NCBI RefSeq assembly: GCF_000970205.1
Contig: NZ_CP009512.1
Span: 2,480,001-2,544,000 of the forward strand
Direction: 5' to 3'
DNA length: 64,000 nt
From: Methanosarcina mazei S-6
Lineage (GTDB): Archaea; Halobacteriota; Methanosarcinia; Methanosarcinales; Methanosarcinaceae
Position 1 is the stretch's first letter. Every line of letters starts with the position of its first letter. Both the position numbers and the translations under genes were made by a program. The notes beneath the pieces were generated by a model. The model was not told the DNA's origin. It ran no database searches and was given only the letters and a program-made list of their open reading frames with translations. Positions 25,936 through 53,420 of this stretch are shown piece by piece.

Positions 25936-27135
25936 TTACTCCTTCTTTTCCAGAAACTCTCCCTGTTTGAGAATCTCTGAATCTGGAATTCTGATAATGT
26001 TCCCTCTGCCCTTTTTGAACTTTTCAATCAATCCGCGTTCTTCGAGATCCGAAAGCATAAGGCTGACTTTGGACTCTGAATAAGGTGACTTTTTCCTGAG
26101 CTCTCTCTGAGTGATCCGGTTTCCACTGGCTCGTATCAGATCCATAATTTCTTTCAGATCATCCGGCAGGCTTGCTTCCCGGCTTTTCGGAACTTCCGGA
26201 CTTAACAAATCAGGTTTCTCTTCAGAGAGTGAACTAATAGACGTTTTAGAGTCAGCTGGCAACTTTTCTCTTTTCTGAACAGATAACTCTGTCTCCTGAA
26301 CAGGTATCTCTGTTTCCTGAGCAGGGATCACTATCTCAGAGACATCTCCAATATGAGATCCAGAAAGTTCATAATTTGTTCCGGAAACCTTTTCGAGTGA
26401 GATACCTTCACCCGGCTCTGCATATTCAGGCATTTGTGACTCTGCTTTGAGATTTTCAGATTCCGGTGAATTTGATTCAGATGAAGCTGAGTGTGATGGA
26501 ATTAATTCTGATGAGGATGGTTTTGATGAAATTGATTCTGATGAAGCCGGATTTGATGAAATTAATTCTGACACAGCCGGTTCTGATCCAGTAAGAGATC
26601 GAGTTTCTTCCGGGGGATATGCTGCCTTTCCAGGAGGATTTTTTTTGCCCTTTTTTATAAAATAACCTGCCAGAAGCAGAATACAGAGTGCGACTGCTGC
26701 AAATATAAGGATCGTATTCTGTGAATTTGTCTCAGGTTGAGTTTCTTCTTCCAGATCCAGATCAACATTTTCAAAGTCCTCCTGGTAAAGAAGATCCTGC
26801 TGATAGGTTGGGAAGAGGAGAAGGTCGTGAACATAATCACCATCATCGGAGGTAATTATAACTTCTTCTTCAGTCTGATATACTATGGTGTTATCTTCGA
26901 GATAACTGGCAGTTATCAGATATGTTCCCTGAGTAAGGTTAAAAGAGTATTCAGCATCCGTTGCAACAAGATACTGCTCCGGAGTAGAGTTAATCTCGAC
27001 TATTGAGTTCTCGAGGGGCTTAAAAGTATACCACTCGTATACAGACCCGTGAATCGTCGCCGCAACTGCGTTTCCCTGAACAAACAGCAGGAAAATAAAT
27101 ACACAGGCGATCTTGCAGAGCTTTCTAAAATTCAC
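25936..27135 (-). CDS. Membrane-tethered winged-helix regulator
   Basis: 399 residues. A signal sequence (KLCKIACVFIFLLFVQGNAVAA) is followed by a carboxypeptidase-regulatory-like beta domain (about 28-110: IHGSVYEWYTFKPLENSIVE…GTYLITASY). A transmembrane helix (NTILIFAAVALCILLLAGYF) with a KKGKK stop-transfer and a long Ser/Glu/Pro linker come next. The C-terminal winged helix-turn-helix begins near residue 320 (RITQRELRKKSPYSESKVSL, then LEERGLIEKFKKGRGNIIRI). The topology puts a sensor outside and the DNA-binding domain inside. It is divergent from the coiled-coil cassette at 27351, which is a plausible target. Family resembles COG2512-type archaeal regulators. Confidence 0.85.
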   Translation of the reverse strand: MNFRKLCKIACVFIFLLFVQGNAVAATIHGSVYEWYTFKPLENSIVEINSTPEQYLVATDAEYSFNLTQGTYLITASYLEDNTIVYQTEEEVIITSDDGDYVHDLLLFPTYQQDLLYQEDFENVDLDLEEETQPETNSQNTILIFAAVALCILLLAGYFIKKGKKNPPGKAAYPPEETRSLTGSEPAVSELISSNPASSESISSKPSSSELIPSHSASSESNSPESENLKAESQMPEYAEPGEGISLEKVSGTNYELSGSHIGDVSEIVIPAQETEIPVQETELSVQKREKLPADSKTSISSLSEEKPDLLSPEVPKSREASLPDDLKEIMDLIRASGNRITQRELRKKSPYSESKVSLMLSDLEERGLIEKFKKGRGNIIRIPDSEILKQGEFLEKKE

Positions 27136-27289
27136 GAAGCTTTAAATGGGTTTTTAGCATAAATCTTTTACTTTTCATTATCAGAGGTTAAAATAAGCTG
27201 GAGGCGCATTAAAGTTTTATCAAGAAAATAGAGATCCAATCAAGCTTGCAAGCAAATATAATATAATTTATCAGTTTTATTCTGAAAAG

Positions 27290-27343
27290 TATGCTTATAT
27301 GTCACTATTCCATTATCACAGTATTATAACTTGCCAAAGGAGG
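27290..27343 (+). promoter_or_regulatory. Promoter and ribosome site of coiled-coil cassette 1
   Basis: TATA-like tatgcttatat at 27290-27300 and Shine-Dalgarno ggagg at 27339-27343, seven nt before ATG 27351. The same pair of elements recurs, spaced almost identically, before the second cassette (29513-29523 and 29564-29568). Confidence 0.55.
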
Positions 27344-27350: not shown

Positions 27351-28397
27351 ATGAAAAAATTAGTGGTTGTTAGATATCTGGCTTATATCACATTTATATT
27401 AATCATACTCAGCATACTGTCTGGAGAAGCATTTGCTGCCAAATCTTCACCGGAGAATGGAAATCGAAATCAGTATGCAGATGAAAATACTATCGATACA
27501 GAAAATTATGAAAACAGTTCAGAAAAGAATAGAGGTACTGAAAGTTCAGGTTCCGAAAGCGTGAAGGAAGAGGAAAGAATCCAGACGCAGGACAGGGATA
27601 AATATACAGCTTATAAACTGGAAAGAAAACATACCCAGGAAGAGCTTCAGTTACAGAAAAGTGAATACAGGGAAGCAAAAGGGGATTTCCTGAAAGTAAG
27701 AAATAAAATTCAGACAGGAAAAATTAATCCGGGTTCTGAAGAAGCTATAGATGCCACTAAAGTCTACCTTAATTCAAGTATCAGCTATATGATAGCCCAC
27801 CTGAAAAATGTAAAAACCAATATGCAGCATTCAAACGGCAGTGGAGCAGAAGAAAAGATAGCTGCTATAGATGAAAGCATTAAAAGGCTTGAGGCTGAAC
27901 AGGCAGCAGTTAAAGATGCATCCAGCCAGGCTGAACTCATTACTTCAGTCAGTTCCGTGCGCGGGATATGGACCAATGCACAGAAAGCCAGCCTGGCAGG
28001 TGCAGGGCAAATCGTTAGCCAGAAAGTAGGGGAGTTCCTTGAGAAATCAGAAAATCTCTCTGGCGGGCTTGAGGTTCAGATTCAAAGCCTGAACGAAACC
28101 GGTGTCAATACTGCTGATCTTCAGACAAGGCTTGCCAGTTATAATCAATATATAAAAGCTGCCCGTGAGAAGAAAGCAACTGCTGATTCTATTTATGAAG
28201 ACGACACTGCTACCCAGAACGATCTGAAAGTGGCAAACAATTATCTGCGTGAATCTCTAAATAATGTGAATAAGGCGAATCAGATACTTAAAGTAATTTT
28301 CGATGAATTGAAGGGACATGGCTTTAATGAAATCGGAAAAGTTATAACAGAAAATGATATAAAAACAGAACTTAATAATACAAAAGGTACAGATTAA
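27351..28397 (+). CDS. Exported coiled-coil protein, cassette copy 1
   Basis: 348 residues. A signal peptide (ITFILIILSILSGEAFAAKS) is followed by a low-complexity Glu/Ser/Asn region to about 80 and then a mostly helical, heptad-rich body. The body includes the segments YLNSSISYMIAHLKNVKTNM, SNGSGAEEKIAAIDESIKRL and SLNETGVNTADLQTRLASYN, all matched by the paralogue at 29576-30625. There is no C-terminal anchor. It is followed 147 bp later by a small lipoprotein gene. I do not recognise an established family; a structural or sensor role at the cell surface is possible. Confidence 0.8.
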   Translation: MKKLVVVRYLAYITFILIILSILSGEAFAAKSSPENGNRNQYADENTIDTENYENSSEKNRGTESSGSESVKEEERIQTQDRDKYTAYKLERKHTQEELQLQKSEYREAKGDFLKVRNKIQTGKINPGSEEAIDATKVYLNSSISYMIAHLKNVKTNMQHSNGSGAEEKIAAIDESIKRLEAEQAAVKDASSQAELITSVSSVRGIWTNAQKASLAGAGQIVSQKVGEFLEKSENLSGGLEVQIQSLNETGVNTADLQTRLASYNQYIKAAREKKATADSIYEDDTATQNDLKVANNYLRESLNNVNKANQILKVIFDELKGHGFNEIGKVITENDIKTELNNTKGTD

Positions 28398-28544
28398 TAA
28401 TTATCTATATGAATTGATAATTAATCTGTAAAAACGGTACTCCTGTAAACGAATTAATTATTCAGAAGCAGAATAAAAAACATCCCCCAGAAGAAAAGGC
28501 TGAGAACTTCTCTGATTATAGATTTAGAATTAGGAGACATTAAA

Positions 28545-28835
28545 ATGGCTAAACTCACTCATCTGCTTTTACTGTTAGCCTTAATAGTCTGGCTTGCAGG
28601 ATCCGGTTGTGTTGGAAATAGTGAATCTGATATGGATGATGAAAGAATTAATCCTGACGCCGGAGCAGAGAATGGGATATCGGATTATTCAGAAATAGAA
28701 CTTACTCAGGCTGAAATTCAGGAAATTGACAATGACATGATTGAGCTTCAGCAACTGCTGGAAAATGCAAGTATTGAAGACGAAATAGTACTTGAAGAAC
28801 TCCCGGGTGTAAAACAAAAAAGCCGGAATAGCTGA
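28545..28835 (+). CDS. Small lipoprotein, cassette copy 1
   Basis: 96 residues. A lipobox-like signal (LIVWLAGSGC, Cys22) is followed by an acidic Glu/Asp-rich mature chain with the conserved segment EIDNDMIELQQLLENASIED then EIVLEEL. Its paralogue at 30638-30898 shares the signal and the terminal motif. It is likely anchored by lipid at Cys22 and may bind the coiled-coil partner; that is inferred from cassette conservation only. Confidence 0.8.
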   Translation: MAKLTHLLLLLALIVWLAGSGCVGNSESDMDDERINPDAGAENGISDYSEIELTQAEIQEIDNDMIELQQLLENASIEDEIVLEELPGVKQKSRNS

Positions 28836-28940
28836 AAGTGAGACGAGAAGAAGACAAAAGGTAAATAAAAACAGGAGTAAAAAGTGAAGAGATAAAAATA
28901 GTAAGAAGTGAAAAACGTAAATGAAATGAAAAGATAATTT

Positions 28941-29005
28941 CAAATGAAATATTCAAATGAAATATTCAAATGAAATATTCAAATGAAATATTCAAATGAA
29001 ATATT
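28941..29005. repeat. 13-bp tandem repeat, 5 copies
   Basis: Five copies of caaatgaaatatt between the two cassettes. The 28836-29512 spacer has no convincing gene apart from this repeat. Confidence 0.95.
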
Positions 29006-29512
29006 TAATTAAAAAATATCCTTCATACTCTGTCTTCTCAAAATCTCCTTTTCAAGCACTGAAGTTTTTTGTTCCAGTTTTCTATTCGATTTTGTTCTCT
29101 GTCTCTGTTAATCCGATATTAACCTGTTTAATTCGGTTAATGGTTTATGCTTATTGCAGGCCAGAGTCTGGAGTTTTGATTTTTAATCCAGCCATTATTT
29201 TTCAGGTAATACCAGGAATGAATCGGATTATCCTCAGTAAAATCCAGCTTTTACAGGCAAAACGCTACTATTTAATTATTTTATTTATGTGATGCTGAAG
29301 ATCTATATTCGAAAGAGAAAAATCAAAAATATAAAAGTCCGTACAATCACTAATTATTTTTACACAGATGTCGAATTGAAGTATAAAAAGCTTACTTTAA
29401 TTAGCAGTAATTTACTGAGCACAAATGCCTTTGAAGTCTTATGTGATTAATAGAATCAATGTTGGGCTTTAAATTAAACATTTATCTACTTATAACCCTC
29501 TTTATGAAAAAA

Positions 29513-29568
29513 TATGCTTATATATTATCCCTCCTCAATAATATAACAATCAAAAATTTCAATGGAGG
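29513..29568 (+). promoter_or_regulatory. Promoter and ribosome site of coiled-coil cassette 2
   Basis: tatgcttatat at 29513-29523 and ggagg at 29564-29568, matching cassette 1 in sequence and spacing. The ribosome site lies seven nt before ACG at 29576, exactly where cassette 1 has its ATG. Confidence 0.5.
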
Positions 29569-29575
29569 AAGTCAT

Positions 29576-30625
29576 ACGACTAAGCCAGGGGAAATTATCC
29601 ATTATGCTTCTTATCTAACCTTAATATTCATACTTTTTAGTGTACTATCACCGTCAGCTCTTGCCGGAAATGGGGCTGGGGCAGGTAATGCTGACAGGAA
29701 TGGAAAGTCTTTTGAAACTTTTCAGAAAACTGAATTGCTTCAGGAGAAAAATCAGGAAAAAAATCAAAATGAGAATTTAACCCGGGGACAGAAACAGCCT
29801 CATGAAGAAGTGCAGGAAAGAAAACAGTTAAAAGAAAAGCTAAATACTCAGAAAAATAATTACCAGAATTCGAGGAAAAACTTCCTTATAATTAGGAGCA
29901 GGTTAAGAGCAGGAAATTACAATGAAAAAGACCTGGAAACTACAAGGGAATACCTGAATGCAAGTATTGACTATATGATAGCCCACCTTGAAAAAGTTCA
30001 GTACAACCTTGAACAGTCGAACGGGAGCGGCACGGAAGCGAGAATTAATGCTATTGAGGAAAGAATAAGCCAGCTACAGGAAGAGAAGAAAGCTATTGAA
30101 AAAGCCGAAGACCTTGAAGACTTTACAAAAGCAACTGAATCTGTGCGCGGCGTCTGGAACAATGTGAAAAACAGGACTGCTGTAGAGACTGGACAGACTG
30201 CAGGCGAGAAAATAGATGATTTTGCTAACAAATCAGAGTCAATTTCCAGAAAGCTTGAAAAAGAACTGGAAAAACTGAATGAAACCGGAGTAAATACATC
30301 TGAACTTGAGTCAAAGCTTGAAAATTATAATGCCCTGATGGCTTCAGCAAGGAAGAATAGCGAGGCTGCAAAAGAGATTTACAATAAAGAAAACGCTACC
30401 GAGGAAGAACTTTCAAAAGCAAACGGTTATCTTCAAAATGCACTTGGAGAAATAAAAGAAGCAAATCATGTCCTGAAAGAAATCTTCGAGGAATTGGAGC
30501 AGTATAGATCTGAAGAGACCAACAGAAACAGAGCCAGAAATAATCCAGAACCAGAGTTCGATGATGCCAAAAATGGAACGGAAAATGAATCAGAAAATTC
30601 CACTGAGGAAGAACTGGAGAGTTAA
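29576..30625 (+). CDS. Exported coiled-coil protein, cassette copy 2 (ACG start?)
   Basis: Paralogue of 27351-28397. Alignment of upstream regions puts the start at ACG 29576: ggaggaagtcat-ACG against ggaggcagtcag-ATG. Upstream in-frame ATGs at 29459 and 29503 exist, but both precede the TATA-like element and lack a ribosome site. The protein has a signal peptide (YLTLIFILFSVLSPSALAGN), a Gln/Glu/Lys-rich region, then the heptad-rich body with YLNASIDYMIAHLEKVQYNL, SNGSGTEARINAIEERISQL and KLNETGVNTSELESKLENYN, ending in an acidic tail. About 349 residues from ACG. Followed after 12 bp by its lipoprotein partner. Confidence 0.75.
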   Translation, partial: TTKPGEIIHYASYLTLIFILFSVLSPSALAGNGAGAGNADRNGKSFETFQKTELLQEKNQEKNQNENLTRGQKQPHEEVQERKQLKEKLNTQKNNYQNSRKNFLIIRSRLRAGNYNEKDLETTREYLNASIDYMIAHLEKVQYNLEQSNGSGTEARINAIEERISQLQEEKKAIEKAEDLEDFTKATESVRGVWNNVKNRTAVETGQTAGEKIDDFANKSESISRKLEKELEKLNETGVNTSELESKLENYNALMASARKNSEAAKEIYNKENATEEELSKANGYLQNALGEIKEANHVLKEIFEELEQYRSEETNRNRARNNPEPEFDDAKNGTENESENSTEEELES

Positions 30626-30637
30626 GGGGGCAAAAAA

Positions 30638-30898
30638 ATGGTAAAATTTACACATATATTTGTAATCTCAATATTAATTTTCTGGCTTGCAGCATCAGGC
30701 TGCGTTGAAGACAATACAGACGTGGGAGAAGCAGGTATATCCCAGGAGATTCCGGGTGCAGAGGATGGTGAAAATACCTCAGCAAAACAGGAGCTAACCG
30801 AAGCAGATCTTAAGGAGTTTGAGGAAAATGTTACAGACCTTGAGGACCTGCTAAATAATTCAAGCCTTGACGAAGAAATAGTTATTGAAGAACTTTAA
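30638..30898 (+). CDS. Small lipoprotein, cassette copy 2
   Basis: 86 residues, ATG 30638 preceded by gggggc. Lipobox LIFWLAASGC with Cys22, acidic chain, conserved segment EFEENVTDLEDLLNNSSLDE and terminal EIVIEEL. It is paralogous to 28545-28835. Only 12 bp separate it from the coiled-coil gene, so this copy is an operon. Confidence 0.8.
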   Translation: MVKFTHIFVISILIFWLAASGCVEDNTDVGEAGISQEIPGAEDGENTSAKQELTEADLKEFEENVTDLEDLLNNSSLDEEIVIEEL

Positions 30899-30953: not shown

Positions 30954-31280
30954 TCATTTGAAGAACATCTTTTCTTTATTTTTCATTTTCCGGACTTCGT
31001 CTTCCAGGGTTTCTAACCTTGCTTCAAGCTCATTCATGTCTTTTCTTGTGAAAACATCTGCCTTTGCAATGGCATCCTGCATTTTATCAGATATTTTCTT
31101 TTCGAGGTCAATCCTCTGTTTCCTGCTCTCCTCCACCAGGTCCTGAACAGTTCTCTTGCCTTCCTCTTTGCTGATATCCCCTCTGTCGACAAGGTCTTTC
31201 ACAAGTTCATTTACTCTATCTTCTGTCATTGCCCACAGGCCAGCCCCTATGAGCCCAAGTTTTCTGACGGATTCTTTCAT
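30954..31280 (-). CDS. Phasin-like coiled-coil protein
   Basis: 108 residues: a short hydrophobic start (KLGLIGAGLWAMTEDRVNEL), then VKDLVDRGDISKEEGKRTVQ and a long charged coiled coil to the end (ELEARLETLEDEVRKMK). This is the pattern of the phasin/PhaF-like superfamily, small proteins found on polymer granules but also widely in organisms without them. Role in this organism unknown. Confidence 0.7.
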   Translation of the reverse strand: MKESVRKLGLIGAGLWAMTEDRVNELVKDLVDRGDISKEEGKRTVQDLVEESRKQRIDLEKKISDKMQDAIAKADVFTRKDMNELEARLETLEDEVRKMKNKEKMFFK

Positions 31281-32002: not shown

Positions 32003-34684
32003 ATGGCTAAACTCAATGAAGCTGAGACACGGAAAAGACTGATAGATCCGATGCTTGCTGCTGCAGGGTGGAATATCGTTTTCTATGATAAGACAAAAAG
32101 ACAAGATAATTACAATAATTGTGCGATAAGAGAGTATCCAACTGATTACGGACCTGCAGATTATGCGCTTTGCGTAGGAGGAAAAATCCTCGGAATTATT
32201 GAGGCAAAGAAAGAAGAGTCTGGTACACAAAGTGTTTTAACTCAGGCTGAAAGGTATTCACGTGGGCTTTCAAATAACCCTTTCAATTTTAACGGATACA
32301 GAGTTCCTTTTTTATATTCCACTAACGGAAAAGATATCCGGCACCACGATGTACGCCCTGCTCTTAGCCGTTCGAGACCAATATTCGGATTTCACACACC
32401 TGAGGCGCTGGTTGAGAAGTTAAATTATGACTCTGAAGATAGAAGTACCACATTTTTTGAGATCCCTGATAATACAAGAATGAGACCATATCAGCGTGAA
32501 GCCTGTGATGCTATAGGGAGGGCTATTGTTGATCGGAAACGGACAATGCTGGTCGCAATGGCTACCGGAACCGGGAAGACATTTACGATTGTCAATCTTA
32601 TTTACCGCTTGATTAAGGCAGGGGTTGCAAAAAGAGTCCTGTTTCTTGTTGACAGAAGAGCACTTGCTGCGCAGGCGGTCAGGGCTTTTTCGTCCTTTGA
32701 AACTGAGCAGGGACTGAAATTTGATAAAACCTATGAGGTTTACAGCCAGCATTTTCAAAGAGGCGATTTGGATGAAAACGAAGCTTTTGATTCAAATTTG
32801 ATCCCTGAAGCCTACCTTACAGACCCGAAGCCAGAGCACAGTTTTGTATATGTATCCACAATTCAGCGGATGACCATTAACCTGTTCGGAAAGGCTTCTG
32901 ATTATTCATGCAGTGACGAGCCCGAGGATGAAGATGCAGGGCAGCTTGATATTCCAATTCATGCTTTTGACCTGATCATAGCTGACGAATGTCACAGGGG
33001 TTATTCCGCACAGGAGGTTTCGGTTTGGAGAGACACACTTGACCATTTTGATGCTATAAAAGTAGGGCTTACGGCTACGCCTGCTGCTCATACACTTGCA
33101 TACTTTAAAGATGTCGTTTATAAATACGGTTATGAACAGGCTGTCAGAGACGGATATCTAGTTGACTATGATATTGTTGCACTGGAATCAGGCGTCCGCA
33201 TGAGTGGGATATTCCTTCGTGAAGGAGAAATGGTCGGAGTTATAGATTCCGAAACAGGGCAAAGTAAAATAGACACTCTTGAAGACGAACGTGAGTTCTC
33301 GGCTGAGAAGATCGAGAAGGAGATTACTAATATTGATTCTAATAAAAAAATCCTTCAGGAGATCAAACGGTATGCCGATGAGCATGAAGAAAGATATGGA
33401 CGCTTTCCAAAGACCCTGATCTTTGCCGTACAGGACCTGGCAAATTCTTCTTCCCATGCTGACCAGATAGTTGATCAGGCAAGGGATATTTTTGGTAGAG
33501 GGGATTCGTTCGTCCAGAAGATTACAGGCAAAGTTGACCGACCTTTGCAGAGGATAAGGGAGTTCCGGAATAGGAAAGAGCCTGGAATAGCAGTAACGGT
33601 TGACCTTCTTTCAACAGGGGTTGATGTCCCGGATATCGAGTATATTGTGTTTTTAAGATCCATGAAATCCCGAATCCTGTTTGAACAGATGATCGGGCGT
33701 GGTACGCGCAAAGGGGAACATTATCCCGATAAGTCTCATTTTGTCGTTTTTGACTGCTTTGGCGGGACCCTCATTGATTATTTCAAAGGGGTTACGGGTG
33801 TAACAGCCGAACCGCCCAGAAAGGAAGTAAAACCGATAAAAAAGGTTATTGAAGATATATGGAATAACCGGGACAGGGCTTATAATGTGCGTGTCCTGAC
33901 AAAAAGGCTCAACAGAATCGATAAGGAGATGAGCGGAGAATCCCGGGATATGTTCAGCGCTTTTGTAGAAAAAGGTGATCTGAACCGATTTGCTATCTCT
34001 CTTGAAAGGCGGCTTTCAGAGGACTTTACAGGGACGATGGGAATCCTGAGAAATCCTGACTTTTTGAACCTCCTTGAGAATTACCCCAGACCACCAAAGA
34101 CTTTCCTTGTGGATTATGCAATAAGGGACGTGGTTTCATCCACATGGATAGTCAGGGATGCGGCTGGCAAAGAATATAAACCGGATGATTATCTGAGTAT
34201 TTTTTCTGATTTTGTAAAAGAGAATTTCGAAAAGATTGCTGCAATCGGCATTCTTCTTGACCGCCCGCAGGAATGGAACACGGATGCACTTGGAGAGTTA
34301 AAAGAGAAACTTGAGTCTTCCCAGCAGCGGTTCACTATCGAAAATTTGCAGAGGGCACACAAAGAGAAATATAATAAAGCTCTTGTGGACATTATTTCGA
34401 TGATCAAGCACGCTGCCCGCGAAGAAGAGTCTCTCCTGACAGCGGAAGAACGGGTCAGCCTGGCTTTTGACCGGGTAACCGTGGGAAAAGATTTTACATC
34501 TGATCAGCGTTTATGGCTTGACCGCATCAGATCGCATTTGATTGCAAACCTCTCCATTGACAAAGAGGACTTTGAATATATTCCCGTGTTTTCCGATTAC
34601 GGCGGCTGGAATAAAGCTAACCGTGTTTTTGAAGGCAAGCTTTCTACTTTGATTTCAGAATTTAACAGGGCAGTTGCAGCATGA
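32003..34684 (+). CDS. hsdR: Type I restriction enzyme, motor/nuclease subunit HsdR
   Basis: 893 residues. The N-terminal HSDR_N nuclease core has the PD-(D/E)xK residues in PADYALCVGGKILGIIEAKK. Two RecA-like helicase domains follow: Walker A near residue 190 (MATGTGKTFTIV), Walker B DECH near 330 (IADECHRGYS), motif III (GLTATPAAHT) and motif VI (QMIGRGTRKG). A C-terminal helical domain contacts the methylase. It translocates and cuts unmethylated DNA with HsdM/HsdS. Stop overlaps hsdM start by 4 bp. Confidence 0.95.
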   Translation: MAKLNEAETRKRLIDPMLAAAGWNIVFYDKTKRQDNYNNCAIREYPTDYGPADYALCVGGKILGIIEAKKEESGTQSVLTQAERYSRGLSNNPFNFNGYRVPFLYSTNGKDIRHHDVRPALSRSRPIFGFHTPEALVEKLNYDSEDRSTTFFEIPDNTRMRPYQREACDAIGRAIVDRKRTMLVAMATGTGKTFTIVNLIYRLIKAGVAKRVLFLVDRRALAAQAVRAFSSFETEQGLKFDKTYEVYSQHFQRGDLDENEAFDSNLIPEAYLTDPKPEHSFVYVSTIQRMTINLFGKASDYSCSDEPEDEDAGQLDIPIHAFDLIIADECHRGYSAQEVSVWRDTLDHFDAIKVGLTATPAAHTLAYFKDVVYKYGYEQAVRDGYLVDYDIVALESGVRMSGIFLREGEMVGVIDSETGQSKIDTLEDEREFSAEKIEKEITNIDSNKKILQEIKRYADEHEERYGRFPKTLIFAVQDLANSSSHADQIVDQARDIFGRGDSFVQKITGKVDRPLQRIREFRNRKEPGIAVTVDLLSTGVDVPDIEYIVFLRSMKSRILFEQMIGRGTRKGEHYPDKSHFVVFDCFGGTLIDYFKGVTGVTAEPPRKEVKPIKKVIEDIWNNRDRAYNVRVLTKRLNRIDKEMSGESRDMFSAFVEKGDLNRFAISLERRLSEDFTGTMGILRNPDFLNLLENYPRPPKTFLVDYAIRDVVSSTWIVRDAAGKEYKPDDYLSIFSDFVKENFEKIAAIGILLDRPQEWNTDALGELKEKLESSQQRFTIENLQRAHKEKYNKALVDIISMIKHAAREEESLLTAEERVSLAFDRVTVGKDFTSDQRLWLDRIRSHLIANLSIDKEDFEYIPVFSDYGGWNKANRVFEGKLSTLISEFNRAVAA

Positions 34685-36105
34685 GTGATATTGTACAGAA
34701 ATTATGGGGTTTTTGCCACACTTTACGGCATGAAGGTATCGATTACGGCGATTATATCGAACAAATTACATACCTGCTTTTTTTAAAAATGGCTGACGAG
34801 CGGGAAATTAAACTTCCTGAAGCCTGCGACTGGCAGTCCCTGAAAGAAAAATCAGGAACCGAACTCACAGAGCATTATAACGATGCACTTCGGACACTTG
34901 GTAAGCAGGAAGAGCTCCTTGGTGATATATTTGCAGGCGCTCTTTCTCGTTTTCACAACCCTGTGAGCCTTAAGAAGATTATTTCCCTTATCGATGAAAC
35001 CGAATGGACAGGCCTTGATATCGATGTCAAAGCAATGGCTTTTGAGGGCCTCCTTGAAAAAGCGGCAAGCGAAGGAAAGAAAGGTGCAGGTCAGTATTTC
35101 ACTCCAAGGATTGTGATCCAGACAATTGTAAGATGCACAAAACCCGACCCCCGAAACCACCGTGATTTTTCAATTATGGACCCTGCATGTGGGACCGGCG
35201 GTTTTCTGGTCTGCGCCTATGAATGGCTGAAAGCTGTAACCGGAGGCGGAGCCCTTGAGCGCGACCTTGCAAAAAAAATCCGCTACAGCACCTATTTCGG
35301 GCAGGAACTTGTGGAACGCCCGCGCAGGCTTGCCCTTATGAACCTCTACCTTCACGGTATCGAGCCTGAAATCAAGCTCGGAGATTCCATCTATGAAATC
35401 CCGGAATCAAAAAAGTTCGATGTGGTACTCACCAACCCACCCTTCGGGACAAAAGGCGCAAACCAGGCCCCTGTCCGTGAAGATTTCGTTATCGAAACCT
35501 CAAACAAGCAGCTAAATTTCATCCAGCACGTAATGACAATCTTGAAACCCGGTGGCAGAGCTGCAATCGTGGTCCCTGACAATGTGCTTTTTGCCGACCA
35601 GGCAGGAGAGGTTTTCAAGGTGCTCTGCGAAGACTGCGACCTGCACACGGTCCTCCGGCTTCCGGACGGCACATTTACGCCCTATTCCCCGGGCACGAAA
35701 ACCAATGTGATTTTTTTCACGAAAGGCATCCCCACAGACCGGACCTGGGTCTACGACTGCCGGACCAATGTGCCGAAGATCACGAAAAAAGACCGCCCGC
35801 TTACAAAAGAGCATTTTGCGGAGTTTGAAAAGTGCTTTGGCTCCGACCCCAACGGCAGGGCAAAACGCGAGGAAAAGGATTCTCAGGAAGACCGCTGGCG
35901 CAGTTTCCATATCTCCGAACTCAAAGCCCGCGACTACAAGATTGATTCTCTGAAGTGGCTCAGGGACGATTCTTTAAGCGATACCGACGACCTGCCAGAT
36001 CCTGAAGAGCTTGCCGCGGAGGCTATTGATGAACTTGAAGCGGCGCTGGGTGAGTTGAATGCTATTCTTGATTTGATGGGGAATGGGTATGCAGCAGAAG
36101 AGTGA
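34681..36105 (+). CDS. hsdM: Type I DNA methyltransferase HsdM
   Basis: 474 residues with an N-terminal helical HsdM domain, then the adenine N6-methylase signatures: SAM site MDPACGTGGFLVCAYEW near residue 162 and catalytic NPPFGTKG near 252. It modifies adenine in sites chosen by HsdS. It overlaps hsdR (4 bp, atga) and hsdS (about 23 bp), so the three form a tight operon. Confidence 0.95.
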   Translation: MSDIVQKLWGFCHTLRHEGIDYGDYIEQITYLLFLKMADEREIKLPEACDWQSLKEKSGTELTEHYNDALRTLGKQEELLGDIFAGALSRFHNPVSLKKIISLIDETEWTGLDIDVKAMAFEGLLEKAASEGKKGAGQYFTPRIVIQTIVRCTKPDPRNHRDFSIMDPACGTGGFLVCAYEWLKAVTGGGALERDLAKKIRYSTYFGQELVERPRRLALMNLYLHGIEPEIKLGDSIYEIPESKKFDVVLTNPPFGTKGANQAPVREDFVIETSNKQLNFIQHVMTILKPGGRAAIVVPDNVLFADQAGEVFKVLCEDCDLHTVLRLPDGTFTPYSPGTKTNVIFFTKGIPTDRTWVYDCRTNVPKITKKDRPLTKEHFAEFEKCFGSDPNGRAKREEKDSQEDRWRSFHISELKARDYKIDSLKWLRDDSLSDTDDLPDPEELAAEAIDELEAALGELNAILDLMGNGYAAEE

Positions 36106-37513
36106 ATTGCCGGAAGGGTGGAAGTCAGTTTCACTTGGAGAACTGGTTCAACCCTCAAAAGAAAAAATAGAACCCTCGGAGAATCCCAATCTAAAATATG
36201 TTGGTCTTGAACATATCGAATCACATAAATGTCAAATAAAAGGTTACGGTTTTTCAGTAGATATAAAGAGCACAAAAACGATGTTCCACAGAGGAGACGT
36301 TCTCTATGGAAAACTGAGGCCATATTTAAACAAAGTTTGTGTCCCTAACTTTGATGGTGTTTGCTCAACTGATATTTTAGTATTTAATGCAACTTCGAAT
36401 CTTAACAATTATTATTTAATGAGATTTTTATCTACCCCTAACGTAGTAGACTACGCAAGCAACAATTCCTCTGGAGTCCAATTACCAAGAATTAATTTTC
36501 AAAAATTATCCAGTTACACTGTCCCTCTCCCCCCACTCTCCGAACAGCACCGCATCGTTTCAGCTATTGAAGCACTTTTCGCCCGTCTGGATGCAACAAA
36601 TGAAAAGCTTGACAGGGTGCAGGAGATTTTGAAAAAATTCAGAGAATCGGTGCTTGCGGCTGCTTGTGAGGGTAGACTAACTGAAGTATGGAGGGAAGAA
36701 AATCAAGGGATAGAATTTAAGGTTGATATTTTAGATTCCATTGATTTAGGTTCATCCGTAGATTCAGAAGTAATAATCGATGAATTTAACCTTCCTGACA
36801 CATGGAAATGGACAACTGTCGATTCTATTGGACATGTTAAAGGTGGAAAAAGACTTCAAAAAGGTTCCAACCTCGTTAATTATGATACATCTTATCCTTA
36901 TCTCCGTGCAGGGAATCTTAAAAATGGAACTGTAGAAGGAGAAATATTGTACCTTCAACAGAATGATTATAATCAGATTTCAAAATATACAATAAGTTCT
37001 TCTGATGTTTATATCACTATCGTTGGAGCTTGTATTGGTGATTCAGGAATTGTCCCTGAAGAATATGACGGAGCTAATCTAACTGAAAACGCTGCAAAGG
37101 TGTGCGATCTCCATGGAGTCTTCAATCAATATCTTGCTCTTGTTTTTCGGTCAAAAATAATTCAAGATCAAATCCAAAATAAAATATTTTCTGCATCACA
37201 AGGTAAATTAGCGTTGATTCGAATCAGAAAACTTTTGATCCCTCTGCCCACTCTTCCCGAACAGCAAGAAATAGTTAGGCGTGTTGATGCCCTCTTTGCC
37301 TTTGCTGACTCGATTGAAGCAAAAGTTACAGTGGCAAGAGAAAAAACAGAAAAACTAAAGCAGTCCATTCTTGCAAAGGCATTTTCAGGAGAACTTGTTG
37401 AGATAGAGGCTGAGATTGCAAGAAGGGAAGGAAGGGATTATGAGTCGGCGGAGGTTTTGATTGAGAGGATAAAGGAAGAGAGGGGGAAGGGTGGAAGAAA
37501 CGATGAAACTTAA
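36083..37513 (+). CDS. hsdS: Type I specificity subunit HsdS
   Basis: 476 residues with two target-recognition domains, each followed by the central or C-terminal conserved helix: first LPPLSEQHRIVSAIEALFAR near residue 150, second LPTLPEQQEIVRRVDALFAF near 388. The C-terminal coiled coil is REKTEKLKQSILAKAFSGEL. The two halves give the bipartite recognition site. ATG 36083 lies within the hsdM end; a second ATG follows two codons later. Its last about 170 bp recur at 38950-39125, and a shorter piece recurs at 60115-60200. Confidence 0.95.
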   Translation: MGMQQKSELPEGWKSVSLGELVQPSKEKIEPSENPNLKYVGLEHIESHKCQIKGYGFSVDIKSTKTMFHRGDVLYGKLRPYLNKVCVPNFDGVCSTDILVFNATSNLNNYYLMRFLSTPNVVDYASNNSSGVQLPRINFQKLSSYTVPLPPLSEQHRIVSAIEALFARLDATNEKLDRVQEILKKFRESVLAAACEGRLTEVWREENQGIEFKVDILDSIDLGSSVDSEVIIDEFNLPDTWKWTTVDSIGHVKGGKRLQKGSNLVNYDTSYPYLRAGNLKNGTVEGEILYLQQNDYNQISKYTISSSDVYITIVGACIGDSGIVPEEYDGANLTENAAKVCDLHGVFNQYLALVFRSKIIQDQIQNKIFSASQGKLALIRIRKLLIPLPTLPEQQEIVRRVDALFAFADSIEAKVTVAREKTEKLKQSILAKAFSGELVEIEAEIARREGRDYESAEVLIERIKEERGKGGRNDET

Positions 37514-39827: not shown

Positions 39828-40625
39828 TCAATTTTCTAAAATTTCTGTAGAATTATGACGTATAAGTCCTGTTTTTATACCCTGTTTTTTCCTTTCTTTC
39901 AGTCTGTAACTTTCCCCTTTGATATTAATCGTTGTACAATGATGGAGTATCCTATCAAGCAAGGCAGCCGCTATTACATGGTCCTTGAATATCTCTCCCC
40001 ATTCTCCATATGACTTATTCGATGTCAGGATTGTTGAACTCTTTTCATAACGTCTGGAGATTAGCTGAAATAGGCAGTGAGCTCCTTCATCATCAAATGG
40101 GAGATATCCAATTTCATCAATTATTAGCACTTTAAATTTCATCAAGTCTCTGATCTTCTTTTCAAGTATTCCTTCTCTATTTGCTATTTTCAACCTCTCA
40201 ATAAGGTTTCCTGTATTGGTAAAGTGAACAGAAATTCCTGCTTTTACTGCTTCAATCCCAAGAGCAATTGCAAGATGAGACTTTCCAACGCCTGGAGGAC
40301 CGAGTAAAACAATATTCTCTGCATTATGAACAAATCTCAATGTTGCAAGGTCTTCTATGACTTTTTTATTAATAGATGACTGAAACTCAAAATCGAATTC
40401 TTCAAGCATCTTTTTCACAGGAAAACCTGCACTTTTCATCCTTCTCTCAATTGCAGCAGCTTCTCTGTGTTTCTTTTCCTGTTCAAACAGATAATCAAGG
40501 ACTTCCATTGTTGTCTTGCTGTCCCTTGCAGCAATTTCAAGGCAGTTATCAAGGAGCTCTTCAATTGTATTCAGTTTCAGGTACTGAAGGTTATTGTGAA
40601 GCTTCTCATAAGTGAAGTTGTTCAT
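39828..40625 (-). CDS. istB: IS21 transposition helper ATPase IstB, copy 1
   Basis: 265 residues, intact. DnaC/IstB-type AAA+ ATPase: Walker A GPPGVGKSHLAIALG near residue 109, Walker B VLIIDEIGYLPFDD near 169, sensor STILTSNKSYGEWGE near 196. It directs IstA to target DNA. Start ATG overlaps the istA stop (atga). Confidence 0.95.
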   Translation of the reverse strand: MNNFTYEKLHNNLQYLKLNTIEELLDNCLEIAARDSKTTMEVLDYLFEQEKKHREAAAIERRMKSAGFPVKKMLEEFDFEFQSSINKKVIEDLATLRFVHNAENIVLLGPPGVGKSHLAIALGIEAVKAGISVHFTNTGNLIERLKIANREGILEKKIRDLMKFKVLIIDEIGYLPFDDEGAHCLFQLISRRYEKSSTILTSNKSYGEWGEIFKDHVIAAALLDRILHHCTTINIKGESYRLKERKKQGIKTGLIRHNSTEILEN

Positions 40626-43600
40626 TCAAAACCTCCCTGACTGAATGTTTCATAGACATCAAGAGACCTTTTTTCAACTTCTGGACCTGAGAACTTCAAC
40701 GGAATCTGTGAATTTTTCTTGCATTTTGAATTCTCTTTAAGAATCTCACTCAGGAGACCCTGGAAATGTTCCTTTTTCTTGGAAACTCTACAATTACCTG
40801 GAAGAATTTCATGTTCACAGACCTTTTCATGATCAACATAAATCTCTAATTTTCCTTCCAAAATATGAAGTTCTGCAGTTCTTCCTGCAAACCTGTAAGG
40901 AACAGAATACTTATTTCCAAGAAACGAAATATAACAGTCTCTGGAGATCTTTCTGGTCTCCTTATGGACAACTTTGTAAGGAGGAACCTGATCCAGAGGG
41001 CTCAGGTTCTCCTCCTTAAAGCGTTCAAGAGGGATTTGATAGGTTGTTCCATGGACAGTTGAGTTTACCCTTTCCAACCACCTGTGAACTTGGCCGTTCA
41101 GGTCTTCGAGAGAGGTAAACTGTCTTCCAAGGACGAAATCCCTCTTGACATAGCCGACAGTATTTTCAATTTTACCTTTTGTCTGAGGCCTGTAAGGCCT
41201 GCATAACCGGGGAGTAAAACCAAAGCATTTGAAGAAATCCTCAAACTGTGAGTTCCATTCAGAATCTGATGATTTTAAGGCTCTTTTGATAACAACCTGT
41301 TTGTCGAATAACAGGGTGGGATTTCTCCCTACCCCGTCTTCTAGGAACCGGACTTGAACCTTTCGATTCATCCGGCTCGAGCCACTACTACCCTTTCGGG
41401 TGTCAGTTTAGAACAAAATTGGGGTTAGTGATGCGTTTCTTCCGGTGGTATTCCATGAATTTCCATTGTTCGAAATATTCTTTGTCGATAAATGGATTCT
41501 TATTAAGGCTTGCTAGTCTTTGCCTAACAATTTTGGCATTGGAGAATCTCTCCAACGTATGTAGTTCTGTGCAGAATACGTATTTTCTTTTACCGGATTT
41601 ATGCCAGTATTTGGTCGTTATCCAGGTGAAACCTTTATTTGAGTGTCTTCTTTTCGCCCAGGAGATAAGCATGTTATAGACTATTTCATCAAGTTTGTTG
41701 AAGATAGCAGAAGAAACTGCGTGATTATGATACTGTGCCCATCCCCTAATGATTGGGTTGAGTGTTTGTATCAATCGGTCTTGATCCCATGCTTTTGCTT
41801 TGTGAAGTACGTCACGGATTTTCTTAATAACTTCCTTTTGAGAATCTTTAGATGGCTTCGGAAGAAGTTTTCCTTTATATTTCCTGAAGTTCCATCCTAG
41901 GAAATTGAACCCTTCACTAATATTGGTCACAAGAGTCTTTTCTTCGCTGAGCTTAAGTCCACGAGGATCTAAAAATGCTTGGATGACATCGACTATTTCA
42001 AGAGCCGTTTCCGGGGAATTGGCAGTTACCACAAGGTCATCAGCAAAACGAACATAATTAACCTTGTGTCTGTTTTGATGAGATTTGTCAATTGTTCCAT
42101 CTGATCTGGAGTAAAATCTCATCGCTAAGGCGTTTTCTAAGCCGTTTAAGGACATATTTCCAATTATTGGAGATATAGGCCCTCCTTGAGGTGTACCTTT
42201 TTCGGTAGGAAACAGATAATAATTCTCGGGCTTTGGTAATTAAACATAGTTATCTATTATGAGAGCCTATAGTTCTGTATGGACTGCCCAAGATGTAATA
42301 GTTCCACTCACAAAAAGAACGGTATAGTTGATGGACGTCAACGGTACAAATGCCATGATTGTGGATATAACTATTCCGTAGAGCTGAAATCAACTGCTAG
42401 CCCCACTTCTGTTAAGAGACAAGCTTTGCAACTCTATCTTGAAGGATTAGGATTTCGCTCAATAGGGCGATTTTTAGGTGTAAGTCATGTTTCTGTTCAA
42501 AAATGGATAAAGAAATTTGGTCGGGAGCTAGAGGACCTGAAAAGCGAAAATGAGATATCTATTGTTGAAATGGATGAGATGCACACTTACATCGGTAACA
42601 AAAAAAATATTGCTGGATATGGATTGCTGTTGATAGAGTTGGGAAAAAATTCATCAACTGCTCTTTTGGCAGCAGAGGAACAGAAACTGGACAACTGATC
42701 TGGGAAAAATTAAAGACGAAAAAGATTGAAGAAGTAATGACTGATCACTGGAAACCATATGCAGAGTTTATTCCAGAAACTATTCATACTCAATCAAAAG
42801 CAGAAACGTATACAGTTGAAGGATATAACAGCATATTCAGGCACTTTCTAGCAAGGTTGAGACGAAAGACAAAGTGTTATACGAAGAGTCTTGAAATGCT
42901 AAAGTACTCTGTTCTTCTATTGATGAAACACAGAAATAAAGAATTAGCTATATTTGATTAACAATGCCTAATTCTCGATATATCCGGCTTTTAGGAACTC
43001 TTTAAGGATTCGTTTATCCAGAGGGATGTTATCAAGTATCCAATTATGGCTGATTTCATCAAAGCAAGCTTTAATGTCACCTTCAACGATCCATTCAGGA
43101 GAAACTTTCTTGCTTAAACAGAGGTGAAGGTAGGCATAAGCATCTTTTGTAGAACGATAAGGTTTAAACCCAAACGAAGTTTTGTCACCTGCTGCAGATT
43201 CGATTGCGCCCAACACCAGAGAGTGCAAAGTTTGCATTGCTCTGTCAAACATAGTTGGTATGCTAAGAGGTCGTAGTTTACCGCTCTTCTTTCGAATGTA
43301 CTTCCGTGTTAATGGTTTTGCACGATAGCCTTTGTTCGTTAGTTGTAGAGCGGCACGCATCTTATCTGCCGATGATGACCAAATGACGCCATCTATTCCG
43401 GGAGTTCGACTTCCCTTGTTAGTGGTTACTTTACGTACCGAAAGAAGTTTGGCATAAAAGGACCGGGTCAGAAGACGGGAGAGTTTGTTCACAGTTTTCC
43501 AATTTCCGTTCTTAGCTGCACTTGCAATTCGAGACTGTAGGTTATTAACGGCTTCTTTCACTCTTTTCCAATCAATACTTTTCCATCGTAGAGTGAGTTC

Positions 43601-44763
43601 TTTGTCTGTAAGGTCCGTAACCGAAGTTATCTCTGGTTCTCTTACATTCATAATTAAACAATCCCTGTTGCTTTCGTGACTAATGGCAAGTGGGCATGCT
43701 TTCGCATTGAGGCATTTTTTTTCCTCTATATTCCCCATTACAGGAAACCGTTTGCTTTTTGCCAATTCCTCTGCCACCTGTGGCGTCGGTTTTCCTTGCG
43801 GAATTCCTACCTTATTAAGGACCACAAATGGTTTACCGAGTTCTATGTCATAGATAGTTGTTGGATACTTAGGAGGATCCTATAGACCGGAAGCCATATG
43901 TCCATTCGTCATGACACAACATGGAATGTCATAACCAGGCTCCTATGCCATTTTGGCTCATGCGTATTAACCTGCTTTCGCATGTTATACGTTACGATCT
44001 CTCAAACAGATCTTCACCTTTCGGTTCTCCATATATCCTTTTCCCTAGCGGTTTGGAACTGTCAGGTTCAGTTTTACACCTCATTGTCCTCTGAGCTTTG
44101 CACAGATCCGTTGCCAGAAATGCACATCAGAATAGGGACATTCTGAATGGATAGAATGGCGGGTTGTTCCGCAATCCATAGCATAACTTCTCGTCGCACC
44201 ATGTTATCGTATAGAATCTCCTGTGTAAATCCTCCAAAGTACTCAAAAGCATTCAGATGACACTGGATAAGAGTTGGAGTGTCTATACTCAGTGTAAATT
44301 CAACATATCTCATTCTGGAATATCCAAGAATCATGTTGAAGCAAAAGAGTTTCTTTACCTTTCCATCAACCTCAACTGTTCCTAACTCTCCCCAGTCAAC
44401 CTGAGCCTGGACACCTGGTTTTGTTTCATAGCGGAGTACGGCAGGGATTCCCTGCTCGGGTCGGATTTTTTGTACGAAGTCCTTGACTATGGTTTTTCCT
44501 CCATCAAAACCCATTTCTTTGATTTCCCGATAGAGGCGAGCAGCAGTATAGGGACCTTCTTTGAGTTTTTCTTGTATGTAAGGTTTGAAAGGATCAAGCT
44601 TGCTCTTTCTTCCAGAACGTTTCTGGGGTTCGGGCAAGGTTTTCAGTCGGAGATATTTCCTCACAGTTTTCCTGTCAAAGCCTGTTTGTTTGGCGATTTC
44701 ACTGATGCTAAAGCCTTGTGAATACAAATCTCGTATCAATAGCCATTCCTCCGTTTTCAGCAT
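40622..44763 (-). CDS. istA: IS21 transposase IstA, copy 1, interrupted by a group II intron
   Basis: Exon 1 is 44763-44200 and exon 2 is 41302-40622. Joined, they make 415 codons in frame, ending on the TGA that overlaps istB. Exon 1 has an HTH (RDLYSQGFSISEIAKQTGFD) and the start of the DDE core (QAQVDWGELGTVEVDGKVKK); it ends ...YDNM. Exon 2 resumes KQVVIKRALKSSDSEWNSQF and carries the RPYRPQTKGKIENTVGYVKR segment with the catalytic Glu. Without splicing, each part is useless. Splicing of this copy may be impaired because IS1 sits in the intron. Confidence 0.85.
42229..42968 (+). mobile_element. IS1-family element inside the group II intron
   Basis: 740 bp with imperfect terminal inverted repeats (ggctttggtaattaaacata against ggcattgttaatcaaatata) flanked by a perfect 9-bp target duplication taattctcg (42220-42228 and 42969-42977). 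Removing the element and one duplicate restores the sequence of the sister intron. Confidence 0.95.
42279..42961 (+). CDS. IS1-family transposase, made by -1 frameshift
   Basis: The first frame (42279-42698) holds the zinc-finger DNA-binding part (CPRCNSSTHKKNGI … CHDCGYNY), a helix-turn-helix and the first DDE residue (IVEMDEMHTYIGNKK). The second frame continues WIWIAVDRVGKKFINCSFGS through the MTDHWKPYAEFIP segment to KELAIFD, stop 42959-42961. The frames join at A8 (42600-42607): A_AAA_AAT at 42602-42608 lies in the 0 frame and a -1 slip gives KKKYCWIWIAVD. Bacterial IS1 uses the same kind of signal between insA and insB'. Confidence 0.85.
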
Positions 44764-44851
44764 TATTTATGATCCTCGAGCTTTTCTCAAGGATTGGAAA
44801 TTGGGGAATTTTAATCTGGCCAAAATGAGGAATTATTCACCGGCCTTGACA

Positions 44852-45264
44852 AAGGGAGATTTACGGGCCTGCCAGAAGTCTTTTAGAAGATAATGGAACA
44901 TGGAAGGAAGAGGGTGAATAGTTCTTTCTAATTGCCTTCTTTTGTGTTTCTTCTGGGCTTCTTCTGGAAGATGGATTATGTTTCTTTTCTCATTATACTA
45001 GTACTGTGATTCCGAAGTATGTTCATAAAACTTGATGTTTTAATCTGTCCAATGATCGTTGATTTTCCAACTAAATAAGGAACTTACTTTGGAATCGAAG
45101 CACTAGGCAGGATTATCATAGAGCCTCAAAAGCTCCGCGTAGCGTATGCCAGTAATTAAAAGAATATCTAAAATTGTTTTGTGCTGATCTTTTGGAATAG
45201 CGGCCTTTAATGCTTCATATTCTTTGGGAGTAAGGTTCTTACATCTTTCACATAAAAATGTAAA
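44852..45264 (-). pseudogene. Tyrosine-recombinase (integrase) relic with MITE and TAG codon
   Basis: Minus strand reads LCERCKNLTPKEYEALKAAI then PKDQHKTILDILLITGIRYA and ELLRLYDNPA. It then meets a 103-bp MITE (45001-45103), and continues YNEKRNIIHLPEEAQKKHKR to FWQARKSPF where IS21 cuts it. This is the central part of a methanosarcinal integrase, with the active-site Arg in TGIRYAEL. Excision of the MITE leaves an in-frame TAG between NPA and YNEK. Both N- and C-terminal parts, including the catalytic Tyr, are missing. From 45265 to 45853 I see nothing else. Confidence 0.65.
45001..45103. mobile_element. 103-bp MITE with TA duplication
   Basis: Imperfect 24-bp terminal inverted repeats (gtactgtgattccgaagtat and gtgcttcgattccaaagtaa, read inward) with TA on each side (44999-45000, 45104-45105). 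TA insertion and size fit a miniature IS630/Tc1-type derivative. It interrupts the integrase relic. Confidence 0.65.
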
Positions 45265-45853
45265 ACTTCAGAATCTTTTCCTTAACCTGATTTTGGATAT
45301 TTTACCAAAAAATTATCAAAGTAATGCCTAAACAGTTTTTATTTTAACCTGCATATTTCTGATGTTTTTGAGCCAAAATGACCGCATAATTATGTCAAAT
45401 CATGAAAAATACATAGGTTTAGTCAAAACCCATGCATCTTAAAAAAAGATAAATTCCATCCTTTCTTCCTTCAAAAAAACTTAAATTTAACTTTTTCATC
45501 AAAAATTTCTTCATTTTCTTAATTGCTTCTATTAAGAACTATTAAGACAAATAATGTGAAATTTATAGAATGTGTAATAAAAAGTAGAGTTTGAAAAAGA
45601 TGACCTGATTCATATTCACTTATTTATTTTCAGCCTCTTGAAGCTGTTTTAGATAGGTTCTATACAAAAAGATGTTTTCTCCAATTCAAGGAAGAATTAG
45701 TTGGGAATATATAACATTTTATCATATAGTTCTAATGTCAAATACTTTATATGATTCTATTTTTGAGGCTTGATGTGATCATTAATTTTTTCGTAAGTAC
45801 ATGGAACTCACTTTTATACTTACAATTTGAAGAGGAAAAGGTAAAAGTATTTT

Positions 45854-46909
45854 TCAACTTTCACATTCTCTCATCTGAAAGGCAATTCTATCATAAAGCG
45901 AAATTTCTTTTTTTTCTAAGTCTTTTTTCCATTCTCTTATACAATCGCAATCAAGGTTGTCTAACAATTCGATATCTTGTGTTTCATTGAATTTGTCAAT
46001 TTCTTTTCTTACATAACAAGTGCAGTTATTACAATTATGTGATGTTTCTTTAGGAAGAGGAATAAAAGCGTCTCCTCCAATTATTATCTTTCCTCTTTGG
46101 TGAGTTTGTTTTACTATATGTACAGCACTCCATAACCAAGGCACTCTATAAAATCCATTTTTAGTCAAAAAATCTTGTAGTGTAAAATCCTGAACTGCAA
46201 TTGGTTCTAGTGAAACTACTGATGAACCACTACTGAAAGCATGATTTACAGAAATTAAAGCTTCATCAATTGCTTCACTTTCTGTTAAAAATGGAGGTTT
46301 CACAATGATTCTAGATTCAAAAGAGATGTTCATCTCATTAAGAACTTTAGTTGCATTGTCATATTGTTTTCTTGTATAACCTTTATTTAAGCATAGATCT
46401 CTTATATCATCGGTATATGTATCGAATCCTAAGCCTACTATTATATTTTTTGCAGACACTGAGTTTAATAATTTTTTTAAGGCAGCTCGATTTATATACT
46501 CAGGCCTAGTCTCAATTTTTATCTGTTTTACTCCTAGAGAAATTAAATGTTCAAGCATTTTTTTTTGAACATCGCGAGGAATCTCTTTTGGATCAAAAAA
46601 AGATCCATTTGAAGATAAAACTAACTCATTACTATTAACATATTGTTTTGCATCTTGTAAAAATTGTTGATACATTTTTTCCGGCACATAATGGCCCTTT
46701 AAGTAACCACAAATAAAGCACCCCTCTTGATTATTAGCATAACTGCAGCCTTTCGTGTTTAATCCAATTATTGGTTTGGGGATTACCATCCTTTCTAATG
46801 CGTCTCTAACAATTTGACTTGTATTAGTGTCATATGTTGCTAGGCCTTGATTCTTAATTTCTCTTACTCGATTTAATACCATTAACTTAGCGTACTCTTT
46901 TGAGATCAT
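45854..46909 (-). CDS. Radical SAM enzyme of the RaSEA-like group
   Basis: 351 residues from ATG 46909 (an in-frame ATG five codons earlier lacks a better site). The cluster ligands are Cys55, Cys64 and Cys67 in KGCSYANNQEGCFICGY, the wide C-x8-C-x2-C spacing of Elp3-related RaSEA proteins rather than CxxxCxxC. C-terminal Cys groups (CNNCTCY and CDCIREW) also fit that group. RaSEA proper makes archaeosine in tRNA with ArcS. Here the gene lies in an AT-rich island beside other redox enzymes, so it may be a repurposed paralogue. Divergent from the FAD enzyme, with a 571-bp AT-rich spacer. Confidence 0.6.
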   Translation of the reverse strand: MISKEYAKLMVLNRVREIKNQGLATYDTNTSQIVRDALERMVIPKPIIGLNTKGCSYANNQEGCFICGYLKGHYVPEKMYQQFLQDAKQYVNSNELVLSSNGSFFDPKEIPRDVQKKMLEHLISLGVKQIKIETRPEYINRAALKKLLNSVSAKNIIVGLGFDTYTDDIRDLCLNKGYTRKQYDNATKVLNEMNISFESRIIVKPPFLTESEAIDEALISVNHAFSSGSSVVSLEPIAVQDFTLQDFLTKNGFYRVPWLWSAVHIVKQTHQRGKIIIGGDAFIPLPKETSHNCNNCTCYVRKEIDKFNETQDIELLDNLDCDCIREWKKDLEKKEISLYDRIAFQMRECES

Positions 46910-47495
46910 TGAAACACACCACATAGAAATTAATTGTATTATCTTTTTCGCAATTACTCATACGAAATCTTATTTTCAAACTATATTATAAAGATTCCTA
47001 TTCGAAACGGTGAAATTTAAGTAAAAAATAGTTGAAAATATTCTTAACTGAATACAATCACATCAGAAATCATTTCCAATACATTAAGTATTTAAAAAGT
47101 GACTTTGATAAAAAGTATATAATAATCAAAATTATTTTCGTGAACTTTATATCCAAAACAATCAATCTAGTTTTTAATTCTTAATATAAGTTCTGAAATT
47201 TGTATTAAAACTTATCCAAAAACCCAGTTTTAATCTCAATTATCAGAATTATTCAGGATTGCTTTCCTCATCAGAAGCTCGATTGGTCATTAAATAAGAG
47301 ATCCAAAAAGTAATTTTTGAGGTTTGGGATCGGTTCTTAACATAAGAACAAAAATTAATTCTAAATAAGCTAAAACTCAACTAAGAATGCTTCAATTGTA
47401 TAAATATTACATATATTTTCTATATTTTTACGGAGTTTAGATGAATAATCACAAAACCCAAAAATATATAAAGTCAAACCAAATTAATTAAATTC

Positions 47496-52642: not shown

Positions 52643-52644
52643 GA

Positions 52645-53324: not shown

Positions 53325-53420
53325 TGTCAATGGCGGTTTAATTTTCTCCACTTTGGTCGGTTTAAATTTCCCCACCTTCAGATATAAATTTTACTCAATT
53401 TATCATAAACTCACTCAAAA

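Follow-up and report, generated by a model that had tools for sequence, protein, structure and literature searches.

Two tandem gene pairs of Methanosarcina mazei S-6, each encoding an exported helical protein (CC) and a small acidic putative lipoprotein (LP), lie beside the divergent gene of a membrane-tethered winged-helix protein (WH), which raises the question of whether these proteins belong together and how their expression might be controlled. We analysed the 64,000-nucleotide stretch of DNA that carries the locus (hereafter the window; Table 1) together with related loci in the genus, the order and the phylum. The layout of two cassettes with WH divergent from copy 1 had been proposed in a preliminary description, and our ORF coordinates are identical. 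What is new beyond it is a phased promoter array, the phylum-wide spread of the system, the old age of the duplication and the decay of copy 2. We favour, with a probability of about 0.55, the hypothesis of a dedicated envelope-response module, in which WH would sense the outside, bind the ladder of repeats and activate CC and LP.

Table 1. Features of the locus in M. mazei S-6 (window positions, except in the last row)
Feature	Position	Strand	Remarks
WH	25936..27135	-	ORF; membrane-tethered winged-helix gene, DUF7343
WH core promoter, probable	27158..27176	-	plus strand CATAAATCTTTTACTTTTC; kept in genus
Phased array, copy 1	27209..27244	+	repeats at 10-bp steps
Rung TTAAAG	27209-27214	+	
Rung ATCAAG	27219-27224	+	
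Rung, degenerate	27229-27234	+	
Rung ATCAAG	27239-27244	+	
CC1 core promoter	27285..27300	+	AAAAGTATGCTTATAT; BRE + TATA; 50 bp from last rung
CC1	27351..28397	+	exported helical-bundle protein, 348 aa
LP1	28545..28835	+	small acidic putative lipoprotein, 96 aa
Degraded array, copy 2	29429..29475	+	matches copy-2 array of relatives
Copy-2 core promoter	29506..29524	+	AAAAAATATGCTTATAT stretch
CC2	29576..30625	+	counted from ACG in place of ATG; open up to stop
CC2 as listed ORF	29459-30625	+	listed ATG start
LP2	30638..30898	+	small acidic putative lipoprotein, 86 aa
Third CC paralogue and second WH	G000:C1:1964509-1966899 (L216 4510-6900)		

The exported pair and its distribution

CC1 and CC2 are 36% identical, a similarity beyond chance (E = 4e-58 in a search within the genome), and their alignment has in common the blocks YMIAHL, SNGSG and LNETGVNT of the preliminary description. 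LP1 and LP2 are 41% identical. Their shared EIV[LI]EEL motif, described as a common ending, is present in both, but in LP1 it is followed by 10 more residues. The term coiled coil captured the helical nature of CC, for which helical bundle is the better term given the predicted helices (residues 70-121, 130-159, 166-188, 193-249, 255-282 and 289-321 of CC1); the N-terminal and C-terminal parts are predicted to be disordered. Outside the genus, CC proteins mostly have 400-600 aa and an extra beta-rich region that is missing in the Methanosarcina copies, and ancestral forms carry an added repetitive beta domain. The two halves of CC are separate, adjacent genes in L182, L238 and L241, which suggests that the beta and helical parts may be separable modules. 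These adjacent genes lie at L182 4541-6014, L238 740-2175 and L241 1477-2879. The cysteine of LP is invariant across 41/41 aligned sequences; the lipoprotein call satisfies the strict lipobox pattern in LP2 (ASGC) and fails it in LP1, which has GSGC at the cysteine.

None of CC1, LP1, CC2 and LP2 matches a Pfam or NCBIfam model above its curated cut-off, and a search for a known family in Pfam, NCBIfam, PADLOC and the PDB sequences gave weak matches only. The structural comparisons were similar, with a best Foldseek E of 0.029 and a best VIA-align Z of 12.5, below the chance level of about 13 for helical bundles. Among the relatives, only the Methanocella-like CC passed any cut-off, that of FliE (24.0 vs 22.4 bits), which we took as a chance match of helical sequence. 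The earlier statement that no described family was known holds for both proteins in the Pfam, NCBIfam and PDB searches, and CC and LP represent old and widespread exported families without a Pfam or NCBIfam model.

The association of the two genes was counted for CC genes that have downstream room and encode 240 aa or more, three genes cut by contig ends being left out, and with LP required on the same strand within 700 bp. LP directly follows CC in 38/38 cases in the genus, 40/44 in the order, and 13/19 and 18/24 in two sets of deeper loci (31/43), so that a separation of the partners in most genomes, which would have spoken against the preliminary description, is not observed. No adjoining LP was counted at 4/44 loci of the order and at 6/19 and 6/24 deeper loci, which we count against our explanation; in one of the four order exceptions (L127), LP is present and overlaps CC beyond the cut-off. 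In several loci CC and LP overlap by a few bases, an arrangement typical of genes with coupled translation. The acidic ending of LP, whose loss would likewise have spoken against the preliminary description, is kept in most genus members. The outer flanks differ between families: those in Methanosarcinaceae encode what we take from their sequences to be a homoserine dehydrogenase, an ACT-domain protein and a DNA ligase, those in f9 presumably gyrase A or MinD-like ATPases, among others. Since these flanks vary, simple synteny does not account for the pairing.

CC is present in 28/30 genus genomes, in 158/185 genomes of the order and in 130/392 genomes of an even draw from the phylum. The genus matches cover 29/30 genomes, one of which, G016, has the third paralogue only; G015 has none. 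The carriers include f9 and f14, which we take to be Archaeoglobaceae and Methanocellaceae, and there were no CC matches in the 14 genomes listed for the sister order f6 in the phylum draw.

A phased array of direct repeats upstream of CC

Upstream of CC lies an array of direct repeats of [AGT]T[AC]AAG, one per 10 bp. The genus alignment of the gap between WH and CC yielded conserved blocks, and the repeat was recognised from the gaps of other families; the motif was picked by eye in genus and order loci, and the core pattern was chosen after inspection of the arrays. Our first idea, a palindromic AAGCTT operator, is not generally kept outside the genus and was replaced by the direct repeats. 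Pairs at spacings of 10, 20 and 30 bp number 21, 20 and 24 in 27 genus promoters, 13, 6 and 8 in 31 order promoters, and 2, 3 and 3 in three phylum loci, against a Markov expectation of about 0.1 or less for each count. The exact 10-bp pair separates CC from the other genes of the same loci in the genus (23/43 vs 1/206), the order (15/45 vs 1/207) and the deeper loci (15/19 vs 0/112). It also does so in loci unused in motif discovery (18/28 vs 0/40), a set in which L232, L233, L234 and L251 come from genomes already seen (16/24 without them) and the split genes L238 and L241 count as two rows each. Upstream of CC, none of these four sets has a pair at 7 or 13 bp. On the reverse strand the pair occurs in 0/43, 3/45, 1/19 and 0/28 cases, hence the motif is directional.

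The position of the array is also constrained. Its last rung lies about 30, 40, 50, 60 or 70 bp from a AAAGTATGCTTATAT-like core promoter across 28 genera, and this distance modulo 10, taken as one value per genus, is 9 in 15 genera, 0 in 10, 8 in two and 7 in one (Rayleigh R 0.90, p ~1e-10, uncorrected for kinship). The 82 promoters used are those left after dropping 13/95 without a core match; they are first matches without hand correction, and outliers such as those at 17, 24, 25, 27 and 103 bp were kept. The phase of the array to the WH core is not kept (order: R 0.40, p 0.12). Autoregulation of WH through the array was rejected because of this and because about 200 bp are inserted between them in two genomes. 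In L058 and L059 the insert separates the array from the WH promoter and leaves the spacing from array to CC unaltered. Two rungs and the core, combined into one pattern, have 18 sites in 40 whole genomes (related and not independent, as in all our promoter and genome statistics), 17 of them at CC promoters, with 0 in the reversed control; the single other site (G352) precedes an unrelated small exported-looking ORF. A genus-wide scan for the array with spacing 0/10/30 also returned matches away from CC, many of them tandem repeats, and the 0/13/33 control gave 4 matches in 30 genomes.

The rungs are one helix turn apart and therefore on one face of the DNA, and whole-turn offsets to TATA/BRE, with a free number of turns, fit the need of a face-specific activator. 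It is thus strongly supported that CC and LP are driven by a face-specific regulator.

The candidate regulator and the competing hypotheses

The preliminary claim of a membrane-tethered winged-helix protein was borne out, as WH combines in one chain a signal-like N-terminus, an outer domain (~25-110), a predicted transmembrane segment (142-160, mean hydropathy 2.88; such a segment is also found in four divergent WHs), a long disordered linker and, at the C-terminus, a winged helix (325-384). The latter matches DUF7343 (58.2 bits vs a cut-off of 27.6), is modelled with pLDDT mostly of 82-90, is near-invariant in the genus and is strongly conserved in the order. PADLOC matches to WH, mostly CARF/Csa3 models, are limited to this winged helix and none involves CC, and we discarded a reading as a defence system. 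The outer domain may be of a carboxypeptidase-regulatory-like kind (PF13620, CarboxypepD_reg), scoring 13.6 bits in the window (cut-off 32.3) and 32.8 bits, above the cut-off, in the relative from L219; its structure model has low confidence, which counts against our explanation.

The co-occurrence of WH with CC, which the preliminary description had suggested checking with profiles, is marked: both occur in 118 of 392 genomes, CC only in 12, WH only in 7 and neither in 255 (Fisher p 3e-76, uncorrected for kinship), and outside the order the numbers are 51, 11, 6 and 255. Of the CC genes counted, 28/38 in the genus, 32/44 in the order, and 3/19 and 3/24 in the deeper sets have a divergent WH, an arrangement found in several families with differing outer flanks. 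The genomes of f10 have CC without WH, and the three of them that could be scored also lack the array, a joint absence that may be a single event. Several observations count against the association. Archaeoglobaceae-like, f3 and f2 genomes have WH alone elsewhere with no array upstream of it; G377, G385, G416 and G420, all less than 90% complete, keep the array with no WH match; and G222, G289 and G219 have WH and no 10-bp pair. The co-occurrence, the repeated neighbourhood, the conserved winged helix and the joint absence in f10 make WH the natural reader of the ladder, and the face-specific regulator of CC and LP is likely to be WH.

These data must be weighed against other hypotheses on the ladder. 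It could serve a different, soluble activator, with WH controlling something else or only sensing CC; the array stays at CC promoters even where WH is distant, and its phase relates to the CC core and not to that of WH. Yet WH and CC co-occur, their divergent neighbourhood recurs with different outer flanks, and WH and array are both absent in the scored f10 genomes, which makes a soluble activator unlikely in our opinion. We see still less reason to think that WH represses CC and LP until an envelope signal releases it. Divergently placed regulator genes are often repressors, but the array lies at whole-turn distances upstream of BRE/TATA, the usual place of archaeal activators, and in the window it covers neither core nor start; a repressor needs no phase, so that the whole-turn offsets point to a face-specific activator. 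That the repeats merely bend DNA or place histones is highly improbable: A+T steps with a 10-bp period can do both, but this motif is one-directional, virtually absent at the promoters of neighbouring genes and nearly unique per genome.

A different kind of alternative concerns the output. CC and LP might be structural components of the cell surface whose dosage WH controls in an ordinary way, with no sensing of stress, in agreement with an exported, helical CC with disordered ends and with the repetitive beta domain of the ancestral forms. Nothing speaks directly against this hypothesis, which we regard as quite possible if short of probable; copy 2 is often lost, and so the dosage does not seem tight.

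Under the envelope-response hypothesis, WH would be a membrane-tethered one-component regulator whose outer beta domain senses the state of the cell envelope and whose single transmembrane segment relays it, the C-terminal winged helix binding DNA from the membrane. Its target would be the ladder, in which a short direct repeat recurs at every helix turn, whole turns upstream of one core promoter; WH would activate this promoter by contacting the basal machinery from the same side of the helix. CC and LP would be secreted together, LP being held in the membrane and engaging CC through its C-terminal helix and acidic tail; their role would probably be to protect or reshape the envelope, and they may in turn act on the outer domain of WH. 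That the signal is envelope stress we infer from the topology of WH, CC and LP. The earlier proposal of an envelope-sensing system thus stands as regards the pairing, the co-occurrence with WH and the lack of a described family, whereas the membrane complex and the sensing role keep the status of inference. More speculatively, membrane-anchored WH receptors might assemble head to tail on the ladder, bringing the promoter to the membrane and switching on a single envelope operon. Only tentatively would we extend this to an undescribed signalling system, as deep as the Halobacteriota, in which the number of rungs and the whole-turn offset vary while the phase is constant.

Known regulators, including EarA, which is reportedly soluble, resemble parts of this arrangement. 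Transmembrane transcription regulators, as outlined in PMC10269533, are widespread one-component proteins, most of them single-pass and enriched in some archaeal classes, and how such membrane-fixed factors reach and work promoters is described there as poorly understood. WH likewise has a transmembrane segment and a DNA-binding domain in one chain, but unlike the proteins outlined there its DNA-binding domain is C-terminal, behind a putative carboxypeptidase-regulatory-like outer domain, and its candidate target occurs almost exclusively at a single gene in the genomes that we scanned. ArnR and ArnR1 of Sulfolobus acidocaldarius are described as membrane-bound activators of surface structures that bind two boxes between -43 and -84, and these boxes, like our array, lie upstream of BRE/TATA; the two proteins differ in their N-terminal HTH, HAMP domain, two C-terminal transmembrane segments, inverted-repeat boxes, and pilus and archaellum targets (PMC6396743). 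Our domain and hydropathy check found no such architecture in WH, which has a C-terminal winged helix and one transmembrane segment besides the signal-like start. EarA of Methanococcus and Thermococcales has short sites upstream of BRE, with up to three adjacent repeats and whole-window shifts between species, as in the array, but by the source's description its motif is TACATA-like and its targets are archaellum genes (PMC10665913). BldC, which forms head-to-tail oligomers on direct repeats of varying number, is a model for how the ladder could be read, although it is presented as bacterial, soluble and MerR-like and its regulon as wide (PMC5859096). As characterised in these sources, none of the four combines all parts of the WH-array-CC-LP system. 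Literature searches covering few subscription papers found no paper on DUF7343 or on a WH-CC-LP system, and none with presumed locus tags of A. fulgidus; the type of regulator is known, and the system was not found described in the literature searched. The locus offers, in a genetically tractable genus, a conserved candidate regulator together with a site that is short and phased and a target that is nearly unique, and therefore phase, rung number and tethering are each separately testable.

The second cassette and its surroundings

Ten copy-2 genes group in a single clade (SH-aLRT 100) next to the copy 1 of the genus, and the duplication is therefore old. The frame described for CC2 is open, but its listed ATG lies upstream of the gene's own core promoter, and the position homologous to the ATG of the other copies is ACG (29576-29578). 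CC2 may be expressed at a low level or from this ACG, because its frame has no further interruption and LP2 is complete. Decay is also seen in relatives, with ATA in place of the start ATG in L057 and fragments in L035, L044 and L058. The phased repeats of copy 2 are present in L035, L043, L046, L054 and L057 and degraded in the window.

Elsewhere in the genome there is a third, partial relative of CC, lipoprotein-like and with the C-terminal beta region kept, in tandem with a second WH, an arrangement shared by a genome that we take to be M. acetivorans. A third WH lies near 1803140. Cassette 2 adjoins a gene for a phasin-like protein of 108 aa (30954-31280, minus strand; PF05597, 33.4 bits vs a cut-off of 28.8), and an ORF of this kind also follows CC and LP in L096, L098, L099 and L100. 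Further downstream are an apparent type I restriction-modification gene set (R, M, S; 32003-37513) and repeated mobile elements (39828-57581), with IS21 istA/istB-like ORFs and group II intron reverse transcriptase-like ORFs in two near-copies.
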